DNA from: a virus
DNA length: 34,391 nucleotides
IMG/VR virus record: IMGVR_UViG_3300021586_000024
Location: 1-34,391 of that record
Strand: one strand, 5' to 3'
A model generated the notes under the pieces. The model saw only the letters and a program-made list of their open reading frames with translations. It was not told where the DNA came from and made no database searches. Below are positions 28,803 to 33,775 of the stretch, one piece after another (within the stretch, counting starts at the first letter, position 1; each line of letters starts with the position of its first letter). The position numbers were made by a program, and so were the translations under genes.

Positions 28803-29005
28803 CAGCGGCATCCCCCACGCTCGCTGCGCACAAATGCACGGCATTGCGGGCTCTTTTCGGGGAATGCCATCAAGGCCGATTTGCCGATGCCGATGTCATC
28901 GGCATGGCCGCCACCACCCAAAAAGAAGCCCCGACCCACACGGGCCGGGGCAAATCCCGCAAAGCGGGAGGGAGGAGACAACTGAAGAAATGCGGCGGCA
29001 CTCAT
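28802..29005 (-). CDS. Doubtful ORF overlapping a terminator
   Basis: A 67-codon frame starts in an ATGA overlap with the Cro-like gene and ends in a TGATG overlap with the winged-helix gene, which argues for translation. But its middle (GRGFFLGGGG) is encoded by an intrinsic-terminator-like hairpin and T-run, which argues that the region is a leader. No domain recognised. Confidence 0.3.
   Translation of the reverse strand: MSAAAFLQLSPPSRFAGFAPARVGRGFFLGGGGHADDIGIGKSALMAFPEKSPQCRAFVRSERGGCR
28887..28905. promoter_or_regulatory. Perfect 19-bp dyad
   Basis: ATGCCGATG-T-CATCGGCAT has 9-base arms around a single central base, too tight for an RNA hairpin loop, so it is better as a dimeric DNA-binding site. 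It lies between the terminator-like hairpin and the winged-helix gene. It could be that protein's operator. Confidence 0.4.
28917..28951 (-). terminator. Intrinsic terminator downstream of the Cro-like gene
   Basis: On the minus strand GCCCCG...CGGGGC forms a GC stem extended inward by CCC/GGG, followed at once by TTCTTTTT. A second small hairpin (CCCGC-AAA-GCGGG) lies just before it. Position matches lambda tR1: after Cro, before replication genes. It would need antitermination or leak for the operon to be expressed. Confidence 0.6.
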
Positions 29006-29280
29006 GCAGCACCCCGCGAACACATGGTGTTGCACACAACCGCAGCCCCCGCACTCGATGGGCGCGCAGCCGCTGCCGCCCTGCAGCGCATGGCATGCTG
29101 CAGCATTGCGTCCACCGTCACCGCACCGCCTGTGACCTCTGCCACACGCGGGATAAGGCCCAAAGGCACCCCGGATTCGCGCCACAGCGAAACCGCCGCC
29201 TTTGTGCGCGACAACTGATCGGCAAGCCAAGTTGCCTTGCCAGCGTTTTCAGGCATGTCAAGCCACTGATGGAGTTCCAT
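29002..29280 (-). CDS. Cro-like regulator (YdaS family)
   Basis: A 92-residue helix-turn-helix protein divergent from the repressor. The N-terminal MELHQWLDMPENAGKATWLADQ and KAAVSLWRESGVPLGLIPRVAEVTGG are the YdaS-type Cro pattern. The C-terminal tail is Ala/Arg-rich. It should compete with the repressor for the operators and favour lytic growth. It is the first gene of the leftward operon. No Shine-Dalgarno is evident. Confidence 0.8.
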   Translation of the reverse strand: MELHQWLDMPENAGKATWLADQLSRTKAAVSLWRESGVPLGLIPRVAEVTGGAVTVDAMLQHAMRCRAAAAARPSSAGAAVVCNTMCSRGAA

Positions 29281-29286
29281 GGCCGA

Positions 29287-29328
29287 AGTTTAGGCGATCT
29301 TAAACCTACTTGTAAAGCACCCCCTAAA
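29287..29328. promoter_or_regulatory. Leftward promoter and operator pair
   Basis: Two 16-bp dyads of the form TTTAGG-N4-CCTAAA lie at 29289-29304 (TTTAGGCGATCTTAAA) and 29313-29328 (TAAAGCACCCCCTAAA, degenerate left arm), 24 bases apart. On the minus strand TTTACA (29316-29311) and TAAACT (29292-29287), 18 bases apart, could be the -35 and -10 of the promoter for the Cro-like gene. The near dyad covers this -10. The divergent repressor gene lies to the right. Confidence 0.55.
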
Positions 29329-29354
29329 CCAGTGGGTTGTACGCTGTTCGCGCC

Positions 29355-29666
29355 ATGCACTCCCTACGCCGCATCAAACTACAAGCTCTCATAGAAGGCC
29401 GTTTCAACGGCGATAGGGGAGCGTTTTTGGAAGCATCAGGACTCTCGAAAGGCCGGCTCAGCCAATTGCTGAACCCTGAAGAACCTTTCGGCGACACCGC
29501 CGCGCGCAACCTAGAGGATCGGCTGCACCTTGATCCGGGGTTTTTCGACGCAATGGACGCAAGAACCCTTGCGTTTGCACTGAATTTCGACCGACTGCCC
29601 GAGCACCAAAAGCAGCAGTGGGAGAACATCGTGGAGGTGCTGGCCAAACCAGCACCGGGCACCTAG
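29355..29666 (+). CDS. Short CI-like phage repressor
   Basis: A 103-residue protein with an N-terminal HTH domain: HSLRRIKLQALIEGRFNGDRG, then FLEASGLSKGRLSQLLNPEEPFGDTAARNLE, then a LHLDPGFFD motif, common in phage C-type repressors that usually carry an S24 peptidase domain. Here the protein stops after about 35 further residues with no S24 domain. Operator pairs flank the gene on both sides. No Shine-Dalgarno precedes the ATG, so a leaderless message is possible. A TTG further up is less likely. Confidence 0.75.
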   Translation: MHSLRRIKLQALIEGRFNGDRGAFLEASGLSKGRLSQLLNPEEPFGDTAARNLEDRLHLDPGFFDAMDARTLAFALNFDRLPEHQKQQWENIVEVLAKPAPGT

Positions 29667-29692
29667 TGGTTTCCCTTGTCAGACGAAACGGG

Positions 29693-29733
29693 TTTAGGTT
29701 TGACTTGACAGGCGGTTTAGGTTGACCTAAAGT
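29693..29733 (+). promoter_or_regulatory. Rightward early promoter with operator pair
   Basis: A perfect TTGACA (29705-29710) lies 17 bases before TAAAGT (29728-29733), a good sigma70-type promoter. Dyads lie at 29693-29708 (TTTAGGTTTGACTTGA, degenerate right arm) and 29716-29731 (TTTAGGTTGACCTAAA, perfect), 23 bases apart. The perfect one covers the spacer and -10, and the other covers the -35. Binding of the repressor would block this promoter, which drives the rightward operon starting at 29762. Confidence 0.7.
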
Positions 29734-29761
29734 GCGTTCCATCAACCCGATGGAGCGCACG

Positions 29762-29950
29762 ATGCTCAGCCAACCAACCCCGCAAGCACCAGCCACCGCG
29801 CTGCACGCCGCCCTGGCGCGCTACCGCACGGTGCACGACCTGCTGACCGCCGCGCACGACCAGGCGCAGCCCAATCGCTTTGCCGCCCAGCCGGCCGTGC
29901 ACCCCGCACTGGCCGCGCCCACCGTCACCCTGCAGAGTGCCGCGCAATGA
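29762..29950 (+). CDS. First gene of the rightward early operon, unknown
   Basis: A 62-residue Ala/Gln/Pro-rich protein (MLSQPTPQAPATALHAALARY, then RTVHDLLTAAHDQAQ). GGAG lies six bases before ATG 29762. It starts about 25 bases after the predicted transcription start and overlaps the next gene by 4 bases. No family recognised; being the first product of the early operon is its only clue. Confidence 0.6.
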   Translation: MLSQPTPQAPATALHAALARYRTVHDLLTAAHDQAQPNRFAAQPAVHPALAAPTVTLQSAAQ

Positions 29951-30423
29951 GTGCCGCCGCCCTGCTGATGCGCGCCATTGCCGCTGTGGCTTTCTGCGCC
30001 GCCTGCGCGCTGGTGCTGGCGTTTGCCAGCCCCGCCCACGCCAAGCTGGCCACGGATGACTGGCTGGCAGGCGCCCACCTGTTCAGCCGCCACGAAAACG
30101 CCGCGGCCTTCAAAGACGGCAACCGCGGCGCCTACGTGCAGCACCTGCGCACCGGCATCACGGCCGGCATCGTGCGCAACAGCTACGGACGCACCAGCGC
30201 CTACCTCGGGCACACCTGGCACACGGCAGATGGGCGCTTTGCGTTGACGGCCGGCGCCATCACCGGATACCCGGACAGCCCGGTATCACCGCTGCTGATT
30301 CCCAGCATGCGCCTGCCGCTGACGCGCAACCTGGCCGCGCGCCTGAGCTACCTGCCCAAGCCACCGCGGTATGGCGCCAGCAGCGCCGTGCACCTCAGTG
30401 TTGAAACCACGTGGGGCCGCTGA
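29947..30423 (+). CDS. Secreted phage protein with beta-rich fold, unknown
   Basis: A 158-residue protein with an N-terminal signal peptide (hydrophobic about 8-25, ending SPAHA-K). The mature part has WLAGAHLFSRHENA, VRNSYGRTSAYLGHTW and FALTAGAITGYPDSPVSPLL, a beta-strand pattern found in small secreted proteins of Burkholderiales and Pseudomonas phages. It might act in the envelope, for example in exclusion of other phages, but that is inferred only from early expression and export. It overlaps its neighbour by 4 bases. Confidence 0.65.
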   Translation: MSAAALLMRAIAAVAFCAACALVLAFASPAHAKLATDDWLAGAHLFSRHENAAAFKDGNRGAYVQHLRTGITAGIVRNSYGRTSAYLGHTWHTADGRFALTAGAITGYPDSPVSPLLIPSMRLPLTRNLAARLSYLPKPPRYGASSAVHLSVETTWGR

Positions 30424-33607: not shown

Positions 33608-33775
33608 ATGACGAAACGCGAACTGATGGAGCTGGCCGGCATTAGCACGCTGGCTGGTGGCGGCGTGATCGCAGCGCTTGCGCTGCTGGTGCTTTACATC
33701 GCTGCGCTTGGCGCGGCTGCTGGTGCGTTCTTAGGTGCCGCAGTTTGGGTGTTTCGCGCCATCACGGGATCGTGA
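33608..33775 (+). CDS. Small membrane protein next to attC1
   Basis: A 55-residue protein with two hydrophobic stretches (LAGGGVIAALALLVLYIA and LGAAAGAFLGAAVWVF), so probably one or two membrane helices. GGAG lies about 8 bases before ATG 33608. The gene ends 7 bases before attC1, the position of a cassette gene just before its attC. But no upstream core site bounds it on the left, and it continues the phage operon. It may be phage, cassette or both. Confidence 0.6.
   Translation: MTKRELMELAGISTLAGGGVIAALALLVLYIAALGAAAGAFLGAAVWVFRAITGS

Follow-up and report, generated by a model that had tools for sequence, protein, structure and literature searches.

Genes, sites and promoters around a short repressor gene

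The window, i.e. the whole IMG/VR virus record IMGVR_UViG_3300021586_000024 of 34,391 nucleotides, codes for integrases, terminase, portal and tail proteins, indicating a prophage-sized contig. Two recombinase genes are adjacent, one with an integrase match (49-1083) and a second one (1248-2855), likewise with an integrase match, which also matches a DNA invertase family. A cro-like gene (29002-29280, minus strand, 92 residues) and replication genes (O-like, DnaB-type helicase) are oriented leftward, and the product of the gene next after cro is small and matches winged-helix families (GntR/TrmB) weakly, with no match to YdaT. Following them rightward are a first pair of candidate operators, the gene of a CI analogue (29355-29666, plus strand, 103 residues), a second pair and the left operon, whose first gene (29762-29950, plus strand) codes for a protein of 62 residues.

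The structural model of the repressor comprises a helix-turn-helix (HTH) part predicted with confidence (pLDDT blocks 89-95) and two C-terminal helices; a Pfam search of this protein found no HTH family and no S24 domain. Among known structures, the HTH part comes closest to Rep of a temperate Salmonella phage (PDB 5d50, 5d4z; Z 10.6 over 67 residues), whose structure was determined in complex with an antirepressor dedicated to it; no such antirepressor was identified in the window. The predicted fold also resembles the N-terminal domain of PaaR2 from prophage CP-933P with a Z of 7.5, a middling value, and the repressor profile matches the same domain with an E-value of 4.5e-4, spanning 37 residues only. 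The Cro-like protein is 41-44% identical to the cro products of two relatives, and its match to YdaS (PF15943; E 3.3e-4, 20.8 bits) is below the cutoff of 30.

The earlier note had described four 16-bp sites of the form TTTAGG-N4-CCTAAA, one of them perfect, arranged as two pairs of one strong and one weak site. All four were found, at 29289 (TTTAGGCGATCTTAAA, one mismatch), 29313 (TAAAGCACCCCCTAAA, three mismatches), 29693 (TTTAGGTTTGACTTGA, three mismatches) and 29716 (TTTAGGTTGACCTAAA, the perfect member, no mismatches), and remeasurement gave the same start-to-start spacings of 24 and 23 bases within the pairs. The position of the motif thus stands, but its extent needs correction: comparison with relatives reveals a conserved unit one base longer at each end, the 18-mer GTTTAG-N6-CTAAAC. 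Scored against this unit, each pair indeed combines a strong site (11/12) and a weak one (10/12). The cro-side pair, on the minus strand, consists of a candidate OR1-like strong operator, GTTTAAGATCGCCTAAAC (29288-29305), and a candidate OR2-like weak operator, GTTTAGGGGGTGCTTTAC (29312-29329). Its plus-strand counterpart consists of a candidate OL2-like weak operator, GTTTAGGTTTGACTTGAC (29692-29709), and a candidate OL1-like strong operator, GTTTAGGTTGACCTAAAG (29715-29732). The two pairs are about 404 bp apart, the left one starting 26 bp past the repressor stop codon. There are two sites at 9/12 or better per region, and no third operator of the lambda type is recognisable in the window.

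Each pair had also been proposed to cover a promoter, and promoter-like sequences were found on both, on opposite strands. A PR-like promoter that would drive cro (29287-29316, minus strand, TTTACA-18-TAAACT, 9/12) and a PL-like promoter for the left operon (29705-29733, plus strand, TTGACA-17-TAAAGT, 10/12) are the only two detected in a 1.4-kb scan, for which 0.1 were expected. Along its promoter, each pair forms the same module: an outer GTTTAG, a degenerate second half that serves as the -35 region, and a strong palindrome overlying the spacer and -10 box. The -10 sequence TAAACT and a spacer of 17-18 bp are present at the cro promoter in all ten loci that we tabulated (see below). The cro ATG is 6 nt past the -10 box in the window, and the gap is 6-7 nt in nine of the ten loci (the window, L005, L041, L042, L044-L047 and L007) and 9 nt in the other; the cro mRNA is therefore predicted to be leaderless. 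The repressor mRNA is predicted to be nearly leaderless, as a PRM-like -10 box, TACGCT (29340-29345, plus strand), is located 9 nt before the repressor ATG; a TANNNT motif is found 9-10 nt ahead of this codon in nine of ten loci.

Conservation and rarity of the paired sites

We gathered relatives by repressor protein similarity alone. Eight are viral contigs with 58-65% identity to the repressor, two of which (L043 and L045) hardly differ from each other. The other two, L007 and L049, are genome relatives that are more distant and carry S24 domains. Most of the relatives are metagenomic contigs, and several duplicate one another closely. We did not retain L009, L050 and L051, order-level matches that lack the GTTTAG word. 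All ten relatives have kept the cro-side pair, and seven also harbour the left pair; the contigs of L043 and L047 end before its position, and L007 showed none within 200 bases downstream of its repressor gene. The window and nine relatives were scored jointly as ten loci, with L043 inspected apart. The strong site is at +10/+11 relative to the -35 box in 10/10 loci, and with one exception, L047, the weak site lies upstream at -13; the background for a score of 9/12 or better is ~8e-4 per position, in a pool that includes some duplicate flanks.

A DNA pattern search yielded further left-type modules, all at 24-bp spacing. This search required the left halves and the -35 box, and its independent information therefore resides in the right half and in the choice between two spacings. 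A broad pattern, TTTAGG..CTTNAC..TTTAGG, gave 28 matches in viral contigs, of which the majority are in-frame repeats within coding sequences of AT-rich phages. Codon effects largely explain the apparent preference for 24 bp among those matches, and we did not count it as evidence.

The spacing within pairs had been read as about two helical turns, with dimers bound on one face. However, 23-24 bp represent about 2.2-2.3 turns, and the one-face reading is loose as it was worded. What remains of it is the importance of phase, as suggested by a single case, that of L047. Its paired sites are 34 bp apart, versus 23-24 bp in the other relatives, and its intergenic region is 85 bp long, versus 73-76 bp in eight of ten loci, indicating that one turn was inserted and the phase kept. 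L047 thus provides a natural test of helical phasing. In L046, the intergenic region reaches 131 bp and the pair spacing is normal.

L047 also bears on whether the strong palindromes alone might be operators, with the weak sites as ordinary -35 context and the pairing as incidental, a reading that we consider improbable. The second halves of the weak sites, CTTGAC and CTTTAC, do coincide with the -35 box and match the half-site at 4/6 positions, and selection for the box alone could keep them. Nevertheless, the outer half GTTTAG, for which a -35 box has no need, recurs at a constant position in the loci gathered by protein similarity (GTATAG in one S24-type locus), and in L047 it is 11 bp further from the -35 box, in an upstream site that is clear of the latter and still forms an 11/12 palindrome.

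We give even less credence to the idea that the operators are mainly those of Cro, the 103-residue protein being an accessory regulator. A cro-like gene adjoins the repressor gene in every tabulated locus, and in CP-933P (PMC8630535) footprints of both PaaR2 and YdaS map to the paaR2-ydaS intergenic region, with its PRM/PR promoters, those of the Cro-type YdaS overlapping those of PaaR2. What argues against this idea is the repressor helix KGRLSQLL, which is invariant in nine sequences, and the fact that the same operator word goes with S24-type CI proteins bearing the related helix KGRVSQ(L/M)L.

One operator word occurs with repressors that have or lack a self-cleaving domain, which suggests an induction signal that is exchangeable on an unchanged DNA side of the switch, L007 and L049 being the loci that point to such an exchange of regulatory domain. 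Both of them, which bear S24 domains, also possess a third site, at -37 near PRM, and the group of the window may thus have lost O3.

According to the earlier note, a motif search of the whole genome should return these four sites only. The 16-mer with up to three mismatches is weakly enriched in the window (5 matches versus 2.3 expected). With the 18-mer at up to two mismatches, the expectation holds in the window, where the four sites are the only matches, but not in the 5.06-Mb genome, where single sites occur at 11 places (37 for a reversed control pattern). The paired module TTTAGG-N6-TTKAC-N(5-7)-TTTARG is present exactly twice in that genome, both times at this locus, and its reversed control is absent. 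Uniqueness in the genome is therefore a property of the pair and not of the single site. Chance similarity within a regulatory region, to which the mild enrichment of the 16-mer could be ascribed, can be dismissed in view of the conservation in relatives and of a module unique to these pairs in 5 Mb. One exact, unpaired copy, GTTTAGCACTTGCTAAAC, is located elsewhere in the genome, at the end of an ORF in contig C118 (6330-6347).

Searches beyond these loci returned little. The phage collection contains no close relative of the window phage, the repressor had no match in phage records and one weak match in a plasmid, and scans of the genome collection gave no match. There are no relatives among 81 genomes of the genus, and no such sites in phages BgVeeders33 and Aval. 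A literature search found no description of this operator group in such phages.

Switch model and comparison with known systems

The pairs flank the repressor gene, as the earlier note recognised in likening them to lambda OL and OR, and the same layout recurs in the protein-fetched relatives. The locus is very probably a temperate phage's immunity region, built as a compact switch after the manner of lambda OR/OL and of the same type as PaaR2/YdaS in CP-933P. In the mechanism that we propose, dimers of the 103-residue repressor would bind GTTTAG-N6-CTAAAC, the strong site of each pair blanketing the spacer and -10 box of an early promoter, and the weak site, 23-24 bp upstream, sharing its second half with the -35 box. 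A filled pair would turn its promoter off by steric exclusion. PR, which serves cro and the replication genes leftward, and PL, which serves the left operon rightward, are thus probably switched off together by the paired sites. The weak OR site adjoins PRM, and high levels of repressor would probably limit its own synthesis. Binding may be cooperative, and looping could connect the pairs across the distance that separates them. Cro probably competes for the same sites, and induction would take a route other than RecA-stimulated self-cleavage.

In lambda, three 17-bp operators are found on each side of cI, with about 2.4 kb between OL and OR and a spacing of 23-24 bp within OR; cI is leaderless, and CI has a self-cleaving C-terminal domain. 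The region studied here would operate in the manner of lambda OR/OL but lacks two of its features. Both systems have operators that flank the repressor gene and overlie PR and PL, a spacing of 23-24 bp, divergent PR and PRM promoters, and a PL co-directional with the repressor gene. Unlike in lambda, there are two operators per region rather than three, with another sequence, and no self-cleaving domain was found in the short repressor of the window. As related phages keep the layout, we regard the region as a compact lambda-like switch and not as a system of a new type.

Among characterised systems, PaaR2/YdaS of CP-933P comes closest. There, the operators are inverted repeats with consensus GTTTAGTAA, some of them with one poor half, and PaaR2 and YdaS both repress a PL with similar operators (PMC8630535). 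PaaR2 forms octamers and is translated from a leaderless mRNA (PMC8630535, Jurenas et al. 2021). The window shares with CP-933P a small CI analogue related to PaaR2, as far as the 37-residue match goes, and with no S24 domain detected, and GTTTAG half-sites in inverted repeats at PR/PRM and PL. Its Cro may also be of the YdaS type, to which its match is below threshold, and its repressor mRNA is likewise predicted to be leaderless or nearly so, from the distance between the -10 box and the ATG. The differences include the numbers of operators: CP-933P is reported to have a 97-bp gap with four inverted repeats of 18 bp, plus three operators at OL, whereas the window has two sites in a 74-bp gap and a two-site left pair. 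The cro mRNA of the window, which looks leaderless, is another difference. Furthermore, CP-933P carries the paaA2-parE2 toxin-antitoxin pair after the repressor gene and a gene for YdaT (CII); the window has no such pair and no recognisable YdaT. We therefore consider the window best filed as a smaller member of the CP-933P kind.

A similar layout is found under another operator word in Variovorax phage VarioGold (OP296522; L098), which has a 76-bp cI-cro gap (33665-33740), paired sites of the form TAGC..GCTA at PR and PL, and a CI of 222 residues. For the little-studied short, S24-less phage repressors, our analysis provides an exact operator word, a spacing rule and a gene layout, and makes it possible to read immunity groups from sequence.

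An inverted repeat at the left promoter

An inverted repeat (29732-29760, plus strand) extends from the PL -10 box into the leader, with arms GTGCGTTCCATC (29732-29743) and GATGGAGCGCAC (29749-29760). Its 3' arm contains the Shine-Dalgarno sequence GGAG (29752-29755), ahead of the ATG of the first left gene at 29762. As the 5' arm starts inside the -10 box, an RNA initiated at PL would keep only the end of that arm. Folding is consistent with this distinction, with a z-score of -3.7 for the read-through RNA versus -1.0 for the PL-length RNA. When PL leaders were folded from a presumed transcription start, no hairpin came up consistently, which led us to the reading of an arm that straddles the promoter.

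It is conceivable, if a little short of probable, that this repeat acts as a second lock at the RNA level, in which the read-through lysogenic RNA would hide the ribosome site of the first gene while the PL-started RNA would be translated. IS10 and IS50 share the logic of such a lock. The same logic has been described for T4 gene e (PMC3014915). A literature search found no description of a straddling arm at a prophage PL. If it exists, this lock would represent a general way for compact prophages to place PL right behind cI without leaky expression.

Similar arm pairings are found in L049, L070, L073/L076, L041/L045 and VarioGold, whose PL likewise has an anti-Shine-Dalgarno arm; several lineages thus have such a pairing, with differing sequences and, in VarioGold, even under another operator word. 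Over 14 lineages, the summed pairing score is 228, versus a maximum of 191 in 1000 shuffles, with about half of the lineages non-significant individually. We treat the pairing as a lead only, because the lineages were partly picked after examples were known and because pyrimidine-rich discriminators favour pairing with Shine-Dalgarno sequences. Further along the left operon, the protein encoded at 29947-30423 has a weak PHROG match (E 6e-5) to a PagP-type lipid A acylation protein.
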